A stretch of 51,721 nucleotides of DNA from Candidatus Delongbacteria bacterium. Lineage in GTDB: Bacteria; UBA4055. A program made the translations under genes and the position numbers. Location of the stretch: contig JAFGVM010000063.1 of NCBI GenBank assembly GCA_016937995.1, positions 1-51,721 of the forward strand. The letters are read 5' to 3'. The notes under the pieces are model-generated. The model did no database searches and was not told the DNA's origin. It worked only from the letters and a program-made list of their open reading frames with translations. Positions 1,062 to 51,721 of this stretch are shown piece by piece. Position 1 is the stretch's first letter. Each line of letters starts with the position of its first letter.

Positions 1062-1089
1062 TGTGTTTGTCCTATTTTAAATCCCTTCC

Positions 1090-1111
1090 GGACGAACACA
1101 TGGGTTCGTCC
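1090..1111. repeat. Hairpin of composite repeat element (copy A)
   Basis: Perfect inverted repeat GGACGAAC / GTTCGTCC (8 bp) around a six-base loop. It is joined through CCCTACA to the heptamer array at 1117-1147. A hairpin of different sequence but the same form and the same CCCTACA junction occurs at 5947-5971. On the mnmE sense strand the order is stop codon, heptamers, TGTAGGG, hairpin. No T-run follows on the minus strand, so it is not a classical intrinsic terminator. Confidence 0.8.
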
Positions 1112-1116
1112 CTACA

Positions 1117-1147
1117 ACTTATCACTTATAACTTACCACTTATCACT
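1117..1147 (-). repeat. Heptamer tandem array, 4 units (copy A)
   Basis: Four 7-bp units read on the plus strand as ACTTATC, ACTTATA, ACTTACC, ACTTATC, then a partial ACT. It begins 4 bases after the mnmE stop codon. On the mnmE sense strand the units read GATAAGT-like and carry TGA and TAA. Because 7 is not a multiple of 3, a repeated stop-bearing heptamer presents stops in every frame within three units. Confidence 0.85.
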
Positions 1148-1151
1148 ATCT

Positions 1152-2462
1152 TTATTTCCCTATGCAAAAACTCCCGAAGATATTATTAATGATATCCATA
1201 CTCGTCGTCTCACCTGTGATCTCACCAAGAGTATCAAGAGCCTGTCTCATATCAACTATTACCACCTCATTATTCTGTCCCTGCTGAATAGACATCTTCG
1301 CCTGTTCAAGCTGAGAAACAGTCTCTTTTAAGATATTCAGATGGCGCACATTCGAAATATAATACGGTCTATATGTTAGTTCTTCGTCGATAACATTTTT
1401 CACTATTTTGTGTTTTAACTCTTCAATTCCTGATCCTGTTTTACAGCTGATCTTCACTGAATTTTCATCAATTATAACATCCTCTAGGTCGGTTTTATTA
1501 TAAACTTTTATTACGTTCCCAGCGTATTCATCCTCTGATGGATCGGTAGAATCGATCACATGTAGAACAATATCAGCTTCTTCGATTATCCTCCGAGACC
1601 TGCTGATACCTTCATTTTCAATGATATCCTCTGTCTCTCTGATACCTGCTGTGTCAAATATCCTTAAAAGATAACCGTTCACTTCTATCTTTTCTTCAAT
1701 AACATCTCTCGTGGTTCCTGCAATATCAGTTACGATAACCCTATCAGATTTCAAAAATGCGTTCATCAGAGAAGATTTACCCACATTAACATCACCGACT
1801 AAAGCAACTTTGATCCCATCCCTGAAAATTCTACCTTTCTGATATCCCTGAATAAATTTATTTATAACTTCAACAGCAATATCTATCTTACCTGTAATCT
1901 CATCGTTAGGAGTAAAATCAAGATCTTCATCTGCAAAATCAAGCTCAAGTTCCAAGATTGACATAAGCTCTATCAGCATTGCATTTATTTTCTTCAATTC
2001 CTCCGACAGTCCGCCTTTAAGCTGCTCTGTTGATGAAATATATGCAGCATCACTTTCAGAGTTTATCAGATCGATCACAGCCTCAGCCTGAACAAGATCC
2101 ATTTTTCCGTTCATGAACCGTTTCTCTGTAAATTCTCCAGGTTTAGCTTCTCTGATATTCTTTTCCAGGTATAAAGCTTCAAGTATCTTTCTGACAATTA
2201 TCGGAGATCCATGACAGAATATCTCTGCTGATTCCTCTCCTGTATAGGAATGTCCTTCTTTGAAAAAAGCAACTGTAACCTGATCAATAAACTCTCCTTC
2301 ATTAAGAAAGTCTGTCAGATAAAGTTTGTTGTATACTATCTCATGCAATTTTTCTTCAATGGACAAATATTCTTTCACTGTTTTTATTGTATCATTACCG
2401 GAAAGTCTTATTACGGAAATACCTGCTTTTCCCGGAGCTGATGCCAAAGCTGCTATGATCAT
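1152..2462 (-). CDS. mnmE: tRNA uridine-5-carboxymethylaminomethyl modification GTPase MnmE
   Basis: GTPase that works with MnmG to modify wobble uridine 34 of certain tRNAs. 436 residues, slightly short of the usual 450. The N-terminal tetrahydrofolate-binding domain opens with APGKAGISVIRLSG. The inserted G domain has G1 GDVNVGKSSL (about 223-232), G3 DTAGI and G4 NKTDL. The C-terminus CIGK is the family signature, with the conserved cysteine. The ATG at 2462 follows an AGCAGGT site. A sigma70-like promoter lies at 2497-2525, so it is probably transcribed separately from hypD upstream. mnmG is not in the window. Confidence 0.97.
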   Translation of the reverse strand: MIIAALASAPGKAGISVIRLSGNDTIKTVKEYLSIEEKLHEIVYNKLYLTDFLNEGEFIDQVTVAFFKEGHSYTGEESAEIFCHGSPIIVRKILEALYLEKNIREAKPGEFTEKRFMNGKMDLVQAEAVIDLINSESDAAYISSTEQLKGGLSEELKKINAMLIELMSILELELDFADEDLDFTPNDEITGKIDIAVEVINKFIQGYQKGRIFRDGIKVALVGDVNVGKSSLMNAFLKSDRVIVTDIAGTTRDVIEEKIEVNGYLLRIFDTAGIRETEDIIENEGISRSRRIIEEADIVLHVIDSTDPSEDEYAGNVIKVYNKTDLEDVIIDENSVKISCKTGSGIEELKHKIVKNVIDEELTYRPYYISNVRHLNILKETVSQLEQAKMSIQQGQNNEVVIVDMRQALDTLGEITGETTSMDIINNIFGSFCIGK

Positions 2463-2496
2463 AATTACCTGCTATTTATATATCGCATTTTGAGAT

Positions 2497-2525
2497 AATA
2501 TAAGATATTAACATTGTTCTTACAA
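2497..2525 (-). promoter_or_regulatory. Putative sigma70-type promoter of mnmE
   Basis: On the minus strand, TTGTAA (2520-2525) and TATATT (2497-2502) are separated by exactly 17 nt, about 35 bp upstream of the mnmE start. Inferred from consensus only; the region is AT-rich, so chance matches are possible. Confidence 0.5.
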
Positions 2526-2603
2526 TTGTAATATTATTTTTGCATTAATTTGTATATGTCATTGGGAAGGTAATTGACCTGTGGCAATCTATATTAGTGT
2601 TTT

Positions 2604-2671
2604 GGATTCAAGATATTGAATCCTTACGAACTTGATAATTGGACATTCCTACCTGTCCCGATTTATCGGGA
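2604..2671. repeat. Two hairpins downstream of hypD
   Basis: Perfect inverted repeats GGATTCAA-GATA-TTGAATCC (2604-2623) and TCCCGAT-TT-ATCGGGA (2656-2671). They lie in the 218-bp gap between the hypD stop and the mnmE promoter. Neither is followed by a T-tract on the minus strand. They may stabilise or attenuate the hypD mRNA, or be dispersed palindromic repeats; the second is much more GC-rich than its surroundings. Confidence 0.6.
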
Positions 2672-2680
2672 TGTTGGATA

Positions 2681-5047
2681 TTACAATGCAACGCATTGCT
2701 CTGTTCGTTCAATGATCTCATCCTGTAGATCCTTTCCAAGATTATTAAAATAGTCACTATATCCAGCAACTCTAACGATTAGATCACCGTAATTCTGAGG
2801 ATGAAGCTGAGCATCTCTTAACGTATCTGCATTCACAACATTGAACTGCAGATGATGTCCGTTCATATTAAAATAAGTTCGCACTATATCTTTAATAGCA
2901 GTAATGCCTTTTGGATCGTTGAATATCTCAGGTGTGAATTTCTGATTCAGAAGAGTACCTCCTGTCTTCAAATGATCCATTTTTGAAGCTGATTTCAATA
3001 CTGCCGTAGGACCTTTCACATCAGCTCCCTGTACGGGTGAAATACCTTCAGAAAGTGGCTTGCCTGCTTTTCTACCATCTGCAGTAGCACCGATCACAGA
3101 ACCGAAATATACATGACTGGTCGTAGGCAGCATATTTATCCTGTATTTACCTCCAATAGCATTAGGTCTTCCGTTCACCGAATCATGAAAAGTATTGAAT
3201 ACTTCCTGCATCAGTGAGTCAGGATAATCATCATCATTACCATATTTCCGGGTTTTATTTTTTACGATACTATGAAGAATTTCATATCCGTCAAAATTAT
3301 CATCAATAGCTCTGATCATGGATTGCATAGTGAATCTTTGATCATCAAAAACATGCTGCTTTATACTGGAAAGACTGTCTGTAATAGTTCCTGTACCAAC
3401 TCCCTGAATGTAAGATGAATTATACCTTGCTCCTCCTGCATTGTAATCTTTACCTGTAGAGATACAATCATCTATAATGACTGACAGAAATGGAGCAGGC
3501 ATTGTTTCTGCGTAAAGTTCTGCGATTTTGTTACTTCCTTCGATCTTGATATCTATGAAATATTTTAACTGTTCTTTGAAAGCTGTCATCAGCTCTTCGA
3601 ATGAACCGAAGAACATAGCATCACCGGTACCTATTCCGATCAGCTTCTGAGTATAATTATCGTATCCGTTATGCAAAGTAAGATCAAGTATCTTTGTAAG
3701 ATTGAAATAACCATGAAGAATATATGCTTCCTTTCCGAATGCTCCGGTCTCAACACAGCCGCTTGTACCACCGTCTCTGGCATCTTCGATAGATTTACCC
3801 ATGTTGAGCATTTCCTGTATCACTGCATCCGCATTAAATATTGAAGGCTGTCCTGCACCTTTCTTGAGGATATGTAAAGCTCTCTCAATGAATTTGTCAG
3901 GATTTTTCTCACTGAGCTGAATATTTGAACTTGGTTGAAGTAATCTCATCTCATCTATACAATCAAGTACCATATAAGACATATCATTCACAGCATCAGA
4001 ACCGTCAGTTTTTAAACCACCTGAATTGATATTTGCAAAATCGGTATATGTTGCACTTTCCAGTAGAGTAAATCCTACCTTGGGAGGTGCAGGCTGATTA
4101 TTGAATTTTATCCAGAAGAGATTAAGGAGTTCGTAGGCAGATTCTTTTGTCAGACTTCCGTCCTTTAATCCTTCCTCGTAGAACGGTTGCAGATGCTGAT
4201 CCAGTCTTCCAGGATTAAAAGCATCCCAGGTGTTCAGCTCTGTTGTTACACCAAGATGAATGAACCAGTAAGCCTGTAAAGCTTCATGGAAATTTCTTGG
4301 AGCATTTGCAGGAACATGCTTACATACTTCAGCTATATTTTCAAGTTCTATTTTTCTCTGAGGATCATTCTCTGTCGAGGCTAATTCCATAGCTTTTTCT
4401 GAATGACGTTCTGCAAATCTGATAATTGCATCACAAGTGATATACATAGCTTTAAGCTGCTCTATTCTATCTAACTTATCAGGATCACTACCGGCCTGGA
4501 ATTTTTCTATAGAATATTTTATCTCTGATTTGAACTGATTGAAACCCTTTATGAAAATTTTCTTATCAGCTACAGTGTGACCGGGTGCTCTCTGTTCCAT
4601 AAATTCAGTAAAAACTCCTGCTTGGTAAGCATCCATCCACTCTTCAGACATACTTTCTAATATCCGATGTCGGATAGATCTCTTTTCCCAGTATGGCTTT
4701 ATTTTTTTATTATGGATCTTATAAGCGTTTTTATCAACTTTAAAACTGATCTTTTCCCTGTGATTCATTACATCAAAATCTTTCTTCGTATGACAACAGA
4801 GTTCAGGAAATGTTGGTGCTCCGGCCGGGCTGTCACCTTTTTCGCCTACTATGAGTTCACCATCATTGATGCAGACAGGTTTTTTCTCTAAAATATCTTT
4901 AAAAGTTAATGCTCTTAAAACAGGAGTTGAAACTTTCCCTTCGTTCTTAATATACGTATCAGTTACGATCTCGCCCCGACCGATCCAAATATGCGGTATA
5001 GCTTCTAAACTTTGTTTTCTTAATTTTTCAACTCTTTCCGTAAGCAA
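2681..5047 (-). CDS. hypD: trans-4-hydroxy-L-proline dehydratase (glycyl radical enzyme)
   Basis: Dehydrates trans-4-hydroxy-L-proline to pyrroline-5-carboxylate using a glycyl radical; the product can be reduced to proline. 788 residues, matching the roughly 789 of HypD. The active-site loop GTSGCVETGAFGKEAY gives the thiyl Cys431 and base Glu433. The C-terminal radical motif RVAGYSDYF places the radical at Gly762. These are offset by three from clostridial HypD (434/436/765, from memory). A longer frame opens at an ATG at 5086, but the start is better placed at TTG 5047: GGAGG ends 5 nt before it, and it begins one base after the hypE stop. The activase gene is immediately upstream. No proC is visible. 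Confidence 0.9.
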   Translation of the reverse strand: MLTERVEKLRKQSLEAIPHIWIGRGEIVTDTYIKNEGKVSTPVLRALTFKDILEKKPVCINDGELIVGEKGDSPAGAPTFPELCCHTKKDFDVMNHREKISFKVDKNAYKIHNKKIKPYWEKRSIRHRILESMSEEWMDAYQAGVFTEFMEQRAPGHTVADKKIFIKGFNQFKSEIKYSIEKFQAGSDPDKLDRIEQLKAMYITCDAIIRFAERHSEKAMELASTENDPQRKIELENIAEVCKHVPANAPRNFHEALQAYWFIHLGVTTELNTWDAFNPGRLDQHLQPFYEEGLKDGSLTKESAYELLNLFWIKFNNQPAPPKVGFTLLESATYTDFANINSGGLKTDGSDAVNDMSYMVLDCIDEMRLLQPSSNIQLSEKNPDKFIERALHILKKGAGQPSIFNADAVIQEMLNMGKSIEDARDGGTSGCVETGAFGKEAYILHGYFNLTKILDLTLHNGYDNYTQKLIGIGTGDAMFFGSFEELMTAFKEQLKYFIDIKIEGSNKIAELYAETMPAPFLSVIIDDCISTGKDYNAGGARYNSSYIQGVGTGTITDSLSSIKQHVFDDQRFTMQSMIRAIDDNFDGYEILHSIVKNKTRKYGNDDDYPDSLMQEVFNTFHDSVNGRPNAIGGKYRINMLPTTSHVYFGSVIGATADGRKAGKPLSEGISPVQGADVKGPTAVLKSASKMDHLKTGGTLLNQKFTPEIFNDPKGITAIKDIVRTYFNMNGHHLQFNVVNADTLRDAQLHPQNYGDLIVRVAGYSDYFNNLGKDLQDEIIERTEQCVAL

Positions 5048-5048
5048 T

Positions 5049-5885
5049 TTATCCTCCAACAACAGTCTTGAATCCTGCTGATACAAAAATGTTCTTTATC
5101 TCATTTATTCTTTCATCACTAAGCTTGATCCTCGTATCCATTTTATGATGTAAACCAAGTTTAATATATTTATTTTTTTCATAACCGTGATATGATAAAA
5201 GATTTATCTGTTCAAAATTAATTCCATTGAGAAATTCTATAATTTCTGAAATATTTTTCTCAGTATCGTTGATACCGGGTATCAGAGGAAACCTTATAAA
5301 GATCCTTGTATTTTTCTCAGAAAGATATTTGAGATTAGCAAGTATACTTTCGTTGCTTGAACTGGTGTGCTTTTTATGAATATCATTATCAATGAATTTC
5401 AGGTCATAAAGATACAGGTCAACAAATTCATTTATTTTTTCAAAACTTTCAATCTTTGCATAACCGCAGGTGTCTATAACGGTATGAATACTATTCTCTT
5501 TGCATTTCTTTAGGATCTCAAGCAGAAATTCACTTTGCATTAATGGTTCACCACCTGAGAAAGTCACTCCCCCGTTCGAAGTTTCGAAATAATCCATGTC
5601 TTTATATATCTCTGTAAAAAGTTCATCTACAGACATGTCCTGACCGATCACTTCAATTGCATTTGCAGGACATTTTTCTGCAGTGGAAATATCTCTGACA
5701 CCTTTGCAGATCAAACATTCCAGACATTTTTCTTTATCAAATGTAACTTGAATACTTTTATCGAAACTTTCAGGATTATGACACCAGATACATCTCAACG
5801 GACATCCTTTAAGGAAGACTGTAGTCCTTATTCCCGGACCGTCATGTAACGAAAATCTCTGTATGTTAAATATTGTGCCTTTCAT
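5049..5885 (-). CDS. hypE: Glycyl-radical-enzyme activating protein (radical SAM), HypD activase
   Basis: Radical-SAM enzyme that installs the glycyl radical on HypD. The radical-SAM cluster motif CPLRCIWC (CxxxCxxC) follows RFSLHDGPGIRTTVFLKG near the N-terminus. A ferredoxin-like insert CLECLIC...CP supplies an auxiliary cluster, with one set of cysteines rather than the two sets seen in some activases. GGV-FSGGEPL is the SAM-binding GGE region. I place the start at ATG 5885 (278 residues) because AAAGGAT precedes it and family members begin here. The 17 extra upstream codons are encoded by the GC-rich hairpin at 5904-5932 and look accidental. One base separates its stop from the hypD TTG. 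Confidence 0.9.
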   Translation of the reverse strand: MKGTIFNIQRFSLHDGPGIRTTVFLKGCPLRCIWCHNPESFDKSIQVTFDKEKCLECLICKGVRDISTAEKCPANAIEVIGQDMSVDELFTEIYKDMDYFETSNGGVTFSGGEPLMQSEFLLEILKKCKENSIHTVIDTCGYAKIESFEKINEFVDLYLYDLKFIDNDIHKKHTSSSNESILANLKYLSEKNTRIFIRFPLIPGINDTEKNISEIIEFLNGINFEQINLLSYHGYEKNKYIKLGLHHKMDTRIKLSDERINEIKNIFVSAGFKTVVGG

Positions 5886-5903
5886 ATATCCTTTTTTATT
5901 GTC

Positions 5904-5932
5904 ATCCTCGGGCTGCTCGCAGAACCGGGGAT
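5904..5932. repeat. GC-rich REP-like hairpin upstream of hypE
   Basis: ATCCTCGG (5904-5911) pairs with CCGGGGAT (5925-5932) with one T-G pair. Inside it CTG (5913-5915) pairs with CAG (5920-5922) around a CTCG loop. The GC content is far above the flanks. It sits 19 bp before the hypE start, within the likely aminotransferase-hypE transcript, so it may shape translation or mRNA decay. It resembles a dispersed palindromic repeat; copy number cannot be judged from this window. Confidence 0.65.
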
Positions 5933-5946
5933 CCATTTGTTACAAG

Positions 5947-5971
5947 AGGGGTCGAATGGAAATCGACCCCT
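5947..5971. repeat. Hairpin of composite repeat element (copy B)
   Basis: Perfect 9-bp inverted repeat AGGGGTCGA / TCGACCCCT with a seven-base loop. It is joined through CCCTACA to the heptamer array at 5974-6001, exactly as in copy A at 1090-1147, although stem and loop sequences differ. Confidence 0.8.
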
Positions 5972-5973
5972 AC

Positions 5974-6001
5974 ATTGTCAATTGTCAATTGTCAATTGTA
6001 A
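5974..6001 (-). repeat. Heptamer tandem array, 4 units (copy B), containing a stop codon
   Basis: Plus-strand units ATTGTCA x3 then ATTGTAA. The aminotransferase stop codon (TGA on the minus strand, 5985-5987) lies inside the second unit, so the last residues of that protein are repeat-encoded. On the sense strand each of the three perfect units holds a TGA. The opposite strand of a perfect array has no stop. Confidence 0.85.
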
Positions 6002-7097
6002 ATTCTTTTATCCGCTTCCCCGCCTCAACAATCTCTTCCTCATATCTGGCTATATTGAATCTTACATATTTCTTCCCATTATCCGAGAAATGAATTCCCG
6101 GAACTGTTGCAACTTTCTTCTTCTCGTAAAGGTCCATAGAGAACTTTAATCCGTCATCATATTTCTCCGGTAACTTTGCCCATATAAAATATCCACCGTC
6201 GATATTTGTAAAAGTAAAACCACAATCAATTAATATATCACTCAGAAGAAGAAAAGAAGTCTTTATCTTTTTTCTTAGATCTGACACATATACTTTTCCG
6301 AAATCATATTTTTCTAAATATAAAGCAATCGCTTCCTGCAAAACAGACGGAGCACATAATCCTGTATAATCATGGATCAGCCTTATCTTTTCCATATGTT
6401 CTTTTGAACAGATAAAATATCCTACTCTCCAACCTGTGATCGAAAGTAGCTTTGAAAAACTGTTAACATAAAAGAAATTCTCACTTTGAAAAGTAGGCAT
6501 AAATGGCGATTCTGAGAAATAAAGTTCACTGTAAACCGAATCAGCTATAACAAATACTCCATACTTCTCAGCAATTTCTTTCAATTTTAAAATTTCTACT
6601 TCTGACCAGATCGTTCCTAAAGGATTTCCCGGTGAATTAAAGAAAATCACGCCTACATTCTCTTCTTCTATGAATTTTTCTAATTTATCAAAATTAATTG
6701 ATCCATCCTCACACATTGGAAACACTTTGAATTCCCTTTCAAATATCCCTGGAAGTCTACTGTAGCTTTCATACACTGGATCGAAACCCATAGCTGTTTT
6801 TCCTTTATCTATAATTCCGTTGAGGTATGTAAAAATAAGTGAGACAGCTTCAGTTGCACCGTTCACTACCATTATATTGTCTTCAGTGAAACCACTATAT
6901 TTTTGCTTTAACAAGTTAATAAGTTTATGGTTACCGTTTCCAGGAGCATATTGATGAAGATTCTCTGTTGCAATATCTCTGAGTATATCTAAAAGTTCTT
7001 TAGGTGGTGGAAAACCTGGAATTCCCTGGGCTAAATTTATACCACCGTATTTTTTCACTTTGTTACTCATCAAGCTTATATATGATATTTTTTCCAT
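5985..7097 (-). CDS. PLP-dependent aminotransferase, class I/II (methionine/kynurenine type)
   Basis: Fold-type I aminotransferase of 370 residues, slightly short for the family. It opens with INLAQGIPGFPPP, typical of the YbdL/kynurenine-oxoglutarate branch. The PLP lysine is in NSFSKLLSITGWRVGYF, the substrate-binding asparagine in FNSPGNPLGTI, and the C-terminal arginine in YVRFNIAR. Substrate cannot be fixed from sequence; methionine, glutamine or aromatic amino acids are likely. AGGGG lies about 9 nt upstream of the ATG. The last four or five codons and the stop are in heptamer repeat DNA, so the C-terminus may have been reset by the repeat. hypE and hypD follow on the same strand. Confidence 0.9.
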   Translation of the reverse strand: MEKISYISLMSNKVKKYGGINLAQGIPGFPPPKELLDILRDIATENLHQYAPGNGNHKLINLLKQKYSGFTEDNIMVVNGATEAVSLIFTYLNGIIDKGKTAMGFDPVYESYSRLPGIFEREFKVFPMCEDGSINFDKLEKFIEEENVGVIFFNSPGNPLGTIWSEVEILKLKEIAEKYGVFVIADSVYSELYFSESPFMPTFQSENFFYVNSFSKLLSITGWRVGYFICSKEHMEKIRLIHDYTGLCAPSVLQEAIALYLEKYDFGKVYVSDLRKKIKTSFLLLSDILIDCGFTFTNIDGGYFIWAKLPEKYDDGLKFSMDLYEKKKVATVPGIHFSDNGKKYVRFNIARYEEEIVEAGKRIKEFTIDN

Positions 7098-50494: not shown

Positions 50495-50690
50495 TTAAGA
50501 ATAAGATGTTAATTTATGTTTTTTATACAAAATTCACAAGTTAATAAATGTAAAAAATCCCGGACATATTATTTTAAACAGAACGATCATTTTGATATTA
50601 AAGCATTATCCAACTCAATATATTTTTTAATCTTGCAAAACGGAATAATAATTCTCATTATTAATAGTCAAGAAATTAAAGGAGTTGATT

Positions 50691-51641
50691 ATGCGCAGCG
50701 AGGATTTCAATAAAGCTTTCGAAACATATTCAAAGATCAAGAAAAATATACTGACAGTGTTCAAAGGTGATCCGTTCAATATAGATCTATTGCTTAGCGG
50801 TTATTTCACTAACGGTCATATTTTGCTTGAAGATTATCCCGGTACAGGTAAAACAACTTTGGCAAAAGCTCTGGCACTGTCTATTCAAACAGATTTTAAG
50901 AGAATTCAGTTCACACCGGATCTTTTACCAACAGATATAACCGGAGTTAATGTTTTTAATGTAAAGGATCAAAATTTTTATCTACAGAAAGGTCCTGTAT
51001 TTACTAACATACTTTTAGCGGATGAGATCAACAGAACAACTTCCAGAACTCAATCAGCCTTACTTGAAGCAATGGAGGAAAAGCAGGTCACTATAGACGG
51101 AACAATATATCCATTAAGTGATGATTTTTTTGTTGTTTCAACACTGAATCCAGCGGAACTTCAGGGAACCTATCCACTACCTGAATCACAGATAGACAGG
51201 TTTGCACTTCGATTCTCACTTGGATATCTATCTAAAAAAGAAGAAGTAGAAATGCTTGAAATGAAAAATCCATCAAAACCATTAGCAGAACTTTCATCAT
51301 GTTCCACAAGAGATGAAATTCTTCAAGTCAGAGCAGTTCTGGATGAAATAACAGTTCATGATGATATAAAGGATTTTATAGTTGAGCTTGTAAGAAGAAC
51401 AAGATCATACGATGGAATTCTTATAGGTGCAAGCCCGAGAGCATCAATTGCCCTACAGAAATTATCCAAAGTACTGGCATTATCCGAAAATAAACAGTTC
51501 GTCACCCCGGACCATGTTATAAAACTGGCACCTTTTGTTCTTGGTCATAGATTAATATTCGATCAATTCGTTAATGATGAAGAGACAAAACAGATAGATA
51601 TTATCGACAACATTATCAAAGAAACCCCTGTTCCGAAGTAA
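50691..51641 (+). CDS. MoxR-family AAA+ ATPase (second copy)
   Basis: 316 residues from ATG 50691, six nt after AAAGGAG; a TTG six bases earlier is in frame but lacks the spacing. Walker A DYPGTGKT at 48-55 (the loop begins with Asp-Tyr, unlike the Gly-Val-Pro of copy one), Walker B ILLADEINRTTSRTQSALLEAM, then STLNPAELQGTYPLPESQIDRF. MoxR chaperones normally precede a DUF58/VWA gene; that would lie beyond the window. The stop codon lies in the first unit of a heptamer array, so the final residues (PVPK) abut repeat DNA. Confidence 0.93.
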   Translation: MRSEDFNKAFETYSKIKKNILTVFKGDPFNIDLLLSGYFTNGHILLEDYPGTGKTTLAKALALSIQTDFKRIQFTPDLLPTDITGVNVFNVKDQNFYLQKGPVFTNILLADEINRTTSRTQSALLEAMEEKQVTIDGTIYPLSDDFFVVSTLNPAELQGTYPLPESQIDRFALRFSLGYLSKKEEVEMLEMKNPSKPLAELSSCSTRDEILQVRAVLDEITVHDDIKDFIVELVRRTRSYDGILIGASPRASIALQKLSKVLALSENKQFVTPDHVIKLAPFVLGHRLIFDQFVNDEETKQIDIIDNIIKETPVPK

Positions 51642-51721
51642 GAAGTAAGAAGTAAGAAGTAAGAAGTAAGAAGTAAGAAGTAAGAAGTAAGAAGTAAGAA
51701 GTAAGAAGTAAGAAGTAAGAA
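51635..51721 (+). repeat. Perfect heptamer tandem array, at least 12 units (copy C)
   Basis: GAAGTAA repeated without error from 51635 to 51718, then GAA at the window edge, so it continues. The moxR stop TAA is the end of unit one. Each unit carries TAA on the gene's sense strand, giving stops in all frames every 21 bases; the opposite strand (TTACTTC) has none. Longer and more uniform than copies A and B. Confidence 0.95.

Follow-up and report, generated by a model that had tools for sequence, protein, structure and literature searches.

Introduction

The STRR sequences of cyanobacteria are heptameric tandem repeats. Other bacterial heptamer repeats are TAACTGA in Beggiatoaceae and cyanobacteria (PMC4679880), and GGGAATC in Xanthomonas and GGGGA(T/C)T in Nostoc (PMC4692102). 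As far as the accessible text of these two papers goes, such repeats consist of a few degenerate 7-base units in tandem between genes, and in Xanthomonas they also lie near the upstream stop codon; they have one unit sequence per genome, and no terminal hairpin is reported in that text. The accessible part of PMC4679880 cites heptameric repeats as the most abundant longer simple repeats in many bacterial genomes, and the only proposal it offers for their origin and constant 7-base size is polymerase slippage.

The GTAG REP superfamily, which is linked to RAYT transposases, is defined by a small palindrome with the tetranucleotide GTAG immediately on its 5′ side (Di Nocera et al. 2013, PMC3733652). 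The palindromes are perfect, several families share a genome, copies lie near the 3′ end of the upstream gene, and RAYT-like genes stand between inverted copies (PMC3733652; PMC8266576). For the group-3 TnpA-REP (RAYT) enzymes, the tag, the loop and perfect pairing are important, whereas changes at many stem bases are tolerated; how REPs spread is poorly understood (PMC8266576). REPs mostly occur without association to other repeats, and the exceptions named are palindromic, not heptameric (PMC3733652). IS200/IS605 elements likewise end in hairpins whose palindrome is preceded on its 5′ side by a guide tetranucleotide (PMC8266576).

Here, we describe elements of a Candidatus Delongbacteria genome in which these known components, mobile REP hairpins and heptamer repeats, combine at gene ends into a directional composite. 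With GTAG REP families, the elements share the tag 5′ of a small perfect palindrome, the several families in one genome, the position near the 3′ end of the upstream gene and RAYT-like genes between inverted copies; they differ by a heptamer array on the GTAG side. They share the intergenic arrays of few degenerate units with the known heptamer repeats, but the unit varies by site, and an array may stop at a REP tag. The initial annotation of this DNA knew of no account of a heptamer-junction-hairpin unit. The junction and hairpin turn out to be the known GTAG-tagged REP, while for an array fixed to the GTAG side and anchored at a stop codon we found no description in the literature searched, most subscription papers being outside that search.

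Results

Two composites share one layout

The window (the whole stretch of 51,721 nucleotides) is contig 8 of a 99-contig, 2.75 Mb (2,745 kb) assembly, labeled G000. Both copies lie on its minus strand, each downstream of a co-oriented gene at whose stop codon the array begins. Copy A follows mnmE (1152-2462, minus strand; PF12631, PF10396), whose stop codon (1152-1154) abuts a heptamer array of the AAGTGRT type. This array (1117-1151) spans the distance from the stop codon to the GTAG tag (1112-1115), which lies inside TGTAGGG (1110-1116; CCCTACA on the plus strand). The hairpin at 1090-1111 has a perfect 8-bp stem and a loop of 6. On the minus strand, the element reads AGATAGT GATAAGT GGTAAGT TATAAGT GATAAGT T-GTAG-GGACGAAC-CCATGT-GTTCGTCC; in plus-strand reading, 4.4 ACTTATC units make up the array at 1117-1147.

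Copy B follows a class I/II aminotransferase gene (5985-7097, minus strand; PF00155). Here, the stop codon (5985-5987) lies within the AATTGAC array (5974-6004), which holds 4.4 units of ATTGTCA in plus-strand reading. The tag is at 5970-5973 (CTAC on plus), and the hairpin at 5947-5971 has a perfect 9-bp stem and a loop of 7 (AGGGGTCGA-TTTCCAT-TCGACCCCT), so that the minus strand reads TTTACAATTGACAATTGACAATTGACAAT-GTAG-GGGTCGA-TTTCCAT-TCGACCCC. Performing single-strand DNA folding, we obtained z values of -2.9 for copy A and -5.6 for copy B against shuffled DNA. The coordinates, unit numbers and perfect stems first recorded for both copies were reproduced. The heptamers and stems had also been called unrelated, which is too strong for the stems: both fit GGG(G)-A/T-CGA and are members of a series of GTAG-REP subfamilies present in G000.

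Directly beyond copy B, at 5900-5934, a stretch reading GGATCCCCGG...CCGAGGATGACA resembles an element found between genes at several further places in these genomes. The ORF call of the neighboring activase gene begins inside it; the true start is probably at 5885 (MKGTIF).

A third array, a perfect (GAAGTAA)12, occupies 51632-51721 on the plus strand. It lies behind CCGAAGTAA and begins at the stop codon of a putative AAA/MoxR-like ATPase gene (50685-51641, named from its sequence), which ends CCG AAG TAA and is followed by GAAGTAA units up to the contig end, about twelve altogether. The ortholog in the congener G002 ends CCA AAA TAA, encoding the same residues, and has no array. No REP is visible after the array because the contig stops there. 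Contigs C12 and C48 begin inside heptamer arrays. Since the window ends in an array and these two contigs begin in arrays, long arrays seem to break the assembly.

The arrays are coupled to tagged hairpins on one side only

We sampled 818 kb of the 2,745 kb of G000, picked around TGTAGGG matches, and 624 kb of G002 (1.44 Mb together). This choice biases the density of elements but not the 5′/3′ comparison, and genome-wide pattern counts were added. Near arrays, genes were delimited with a simple ORF rule instead of a gene finder.

On its own, TGTAGGG shows no enrichment in the genome (145 sites versus 182 for the reversed control), and its enrichment alone was dropped as a signal of the class; only the coupling to a hairpin is enriched. 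A perfect hairpin of at least 7 bp follows TGTAGGG at 39 of 110 sites, compared with 68 of 9092 sites for 104 other letter orders (1.44 Mb, G000 and G002). Among 67 tagged hairpins, a three-unit heptamer array lies immediately 5′ of GTAG in 12 and 3′ in none (Fisher p = 0.0003), whereas the flanks of untagged hairpins hold one in 3 of 94 cases (p = 0.002 against the 12 of 67). Read in the direction of the tag, all adjoining arrays have their purine-rich strand forward. Period 7 dominates the tandem repeats, with 45 arrays versus 16 of period 6 and 0-2 of periods 8-12.

The search suggested in the initial annotation, for TGTAGGG followed by a perfect inverted repeat, thus gave more than two cases, and 7-bp arrays adjoin tagged hairpins more often than expected by chance. 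Because of the hairpin coupling, the period-7 excess and the one-sided arrays, the proposed class, with constant layout and junction, changing sequence and spread in the genome, passes the test set for it and is borne out. The heptamers are linked with the REP without being a component of it: 55 of the 67 REPs have no array, and about 50 of 68 arrays (about three quarters) have no intact REP.

One may ask whether the hairpins are intrinsic terminators or mRNA-stabilising stem-loops, with the arrays as chance low-complexity spacers. Their sense orientation just behind genes would suit such a function, and some other copies are followed by CTCTTTT. Yet a GC-rich hairpin directly followed by a T-run is found at neither copy (GGAAGGGATTT follows A and CTTGTAAC follows B), copy A lacking a T-run altogether. 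The GTAG tag, the occurrence in both orientations, the presence or absence between sister species and the RAYT-like genes with the same hairpins (see below) point to a mobile repeat, and chance arrays are excluded by the period-7 excess, the 5′/3′ counts and the hairpin coupling. We therefore consider this explanation highly improbable, although the hairpins may have a secondary role in RNA.

The hairpin is a GTAG-tagged REP

TGTAGGG resolves into T, the GTAG tag and the first stem bases of a REP. In both copies, GTAG stands directly 5′ of a palindrome of 20-40 nt, as in the GTAG REP superfamily. The GTAG stem families of G000 include GGGGACGA, GGGCGTWAT, GGGAAGGC, GAGACGTTGC and GGWCGAAC. Two subfamilies counted genome-wide are repeated beyond chance, with 19 and 15 copies against 0 in reversed controls. 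Both are present in congeners; among seven other family members searched, one of the two was found, in G007 only. In other genomes, GTAG followed by the exact stem of copy A occurs in 86 stretches; these belong to Cyanobacteria, Sumerlaeota, Acidobacteria, Chloroflexi, Bacteroidetes and other groups. One REP of G002, with its surroundings, is identical over at least 90 nt to record JAQIDB010000049 (Candidatus Delongbacteria bacterium GH31).

The genus also has genes of the RAYT kind. We term them RAYT-like because all those of the genus score below the curated RAYT cut-off of 80 bits (best 57). At L297 in the congener G001, such a gene has inverted copies of GTAGGGAACGCAGGAATGCGTTCC on both flanks. 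Some RAYT-like ORFs also contain REPs of these hairpin families in frame, placed where the HuH half gives way to the tyrosine half (L270:447-1151, L310:1483-2100, L311:1492-2031, L305:1444-2058 and L299:1492-1782, the last at a contig end of G000). At these five loci, the RAYT-like gene appears to carry the hairpin families of its own genome as coding sequence. The stem of copy A itself was not seen at any RAYT-like gene. The initial annotation had left the mechanism of spread unknown; the junction and hairpin are in fact a GTAG-tagged REP, a described RAYT substrate, in a genus with RAYT-like genes that have such hairpins. The layout would stay constant while the stem changes because several GTAG families coexist and group-3 enzymes read tag, loop and pairing more than the stem.

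A Y1 transposase at L031, the single full Y1 gene that a Pfam search of G000 revealed, was rejected as the cognate enzyme. NF033573 identifies it as an IS200/IS605 TnpA, its ends are different, and its RAYT score is 30, against a cut-off of 80. The gene (L031:1411-1860) is flanked by inverted TAGGTCGTCCC-NN-GGGAC hairpins, a family other than that of copies A and B.

Arrays start at stop codons and change their unit from site to site

The arrays are mostly intergenic, only 4 of 68 lying inside genes. Where both neighbors were called, 25 of 53 intergenic arrays begin at most 30 nt, usually 10, from the stop codon of a co-oriented gene. Averaged over 24 loci, lag-7 identity is 0.1-0.5 in coding sequence and about 0.8 from the stop codon onward. 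Selection may account for part of this anchoring, because compact operons tolerate insertions only between a stop codon and the next start.

Among the 68 arrays, we find 39 different consensus units rather than one fixed unit per genome. In some loci, the first unit equals the last seven bases of the upstream gene itself. Comparing gene ends with arrays in phase, we find that the last seven bases of a gene match the units of its own array better than those of other genes do (p = 0.0024), a signal carried by about a third of the loci. The ATPase-like gene before the third array of the window is the clearest example. At copy B, the aminotransferase stop codon falls within the unit ATTGACA; the ortholog in G003, which has no array, ends AAAATTGACAGG. 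Selection of heptamers for stop codons in all frames was rejected, as 52 of 68 units contain a stop triplet and shuffled units give 52.4.

Orthologous gene ends of G000 and G002 hold arrays with different units in two pairs (L069:10923-10974 and L268:715-784; L064:17107-17138 and L228:10314-10383), suggesting that the same gene ends have been hit or rewritten repeatedly. Arrays without a REP in L218, L228, L042 and L045 have a common AGTTCGC suffix at the end, often followed by a GTTGG-like sequence; this suffix may represent a second type of element attached to arrays. An obligatory junction with dispersed repeats was tried as well. Such junctions are common without being a rule: repeated DNA lies after 25 of 61 arrays and before 7 of 61, and at 87 of 398 other gene ends.

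Sister genomes show empty and filled sites

In six family relatives (G005, G006 and G009-G012), mnmE lies 1-2 nt from the next, alanine-racemase-like gene; in G000, the space between the two holds the array and the REP. Copy B likewise separates the aminotransferase from the activase gene, which abut in G012, and the aminotransferase orthologs of G003 and G012 have no array. At L070:10053 and L068:16638, an array or array-like stretch with a REP or decayed REP is present in G000, and nothing in G002. From these empty and filled sites, the elements are best read as insertions of array and REP behind stop codons. Array and REP are absent together from the empty sites.

The congeners differ at mnmE. 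In G001, there is no array but a different stretch and another REP, which is preceded (L160) by ACCACAGAGATCACAGAGGACACAGAG, a dispersed-repeat-like sequence, instead of heptamers. In G002, an array identical to that of G000 is followed by a different REP and a different next gene, with the assembly caveat that the G002 contig ends about 200 nt beyond. In the adjacent coding sequence, identity between G000 and G002 is 79-95% per 100 bases; thus, the array is better conserved than its surroundings.

These comparisons bear on the main alternative, a sequence of events in which polymerase slippage builds arrays at gene ends, in the way that long simple-sequence repeats arise elsewhere, and REPs land later at the far end, two independent things meeting there. 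We hold this to be unlikely but give it a real chance, because the identical mnmE array ends in different REPs in two species and so many arrays have no REP. Heptamer arrays without REPs are, moreover, described in other bacteria, as far as the accessible text of PMC4679880 and PMC4692102 goes. Independent landing, however, leaves unexplained why none of the 67 REPs has an array on its 3′ side and why the arrays end within a few bases of GTAG; in addition, the two parts are missing together at empty sites.

The joint gain could also mean that array and REP are copied from place to place as one mobile unit, and some heptamer classes do recur in the genome (for example AAGTGGT and AAGTTAG). Joint travel is nevertheless very unlikely, because the same REP subfamily has different heptamers at different sites. 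Most REPs, moreover, have none, the units resemble the local gene end, and the mnmE locus has the same array with different REPs.

The composite occurs as single cases in other phyla

An Omnitrophota locus (L133:5310) shows the same plan with another stem, its array running from the TAG stop codon of a 141-aa ORF through four units to GTAGGGGCAGGTTCCGAACCTGCCCC. Heptamers also precede GTAG hairpins in Cyanobacteria (L141, two sites) and Sumerlaeota (L080); those in L141 are not behind a stop codon. These cases were selected after the fact and carry no statistics. The flanks of all 88 copy-A-type REPs gave no 7-base signal. The composite is, therefore, scattered and not general, and it was rejected as a rule for the REP of copy A across phyla, where it stands as single cases (L080 and L141, and L133 with its other stem).

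Discussion

We consider it likely that these elements arise when a GTAG-tagged REP, moved by a RAYT enzyme, inserts behind the stop codon of an upstream gene, the 7-base array filling the distance from stop codon to GTAG. The REP is a small hairpin of the type recognised by RAYT transposases, which cleave it in single-stranded form, and its insertion between two genes was probably catalyzed by enzymes of the RAYT type. The array may have been made in place by repeated 7-base misaligned DNA synthesis between the end of the target and the hairpin. Its first unit would be copied from the end of the gene, which would give every site its own heptamer. The differing stems would represent coexisting REP subfamilies, read by enzymes through tag, loop and pairing rather than stem sequence. 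Against this explanation stand the RAYT scores of the genus, all below the cut-off, the L031 gene as an IS200/IS605 TnpA with other ends, the majorities of REPs without array and of arrays without intact REP, the gene-end signal being confined to about a third of the loci, and the share that selection may have in the stop-codon anchoring. The two REPs behind one mnmE array also fit REP turnover at an older array.

In a bolder form of the idea, the arrays are scars of REP insertion: a RAYT-type enzyme joins the GTAG hairpin behind the stop codon, and the free 3′ end of the target is self-copied in 7-base steps before sealing. We regard this as rather unlikely. If true, it would explain at once why units keep one length but change in sequence and why arrays lie on one side only and are anchored at gene ends, and it could give the heptameric repeats of several phyla a common origin.

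A composite with one side, one strand and a datable insertion point makes both the origin of heptamers and the spread of REPs testable. The sister genomes supply the states before and after, and the junctions predict what a reaction of the RAYT type should leave behind. Elements with different-looking stems can, in addition, be one enzymatic class.
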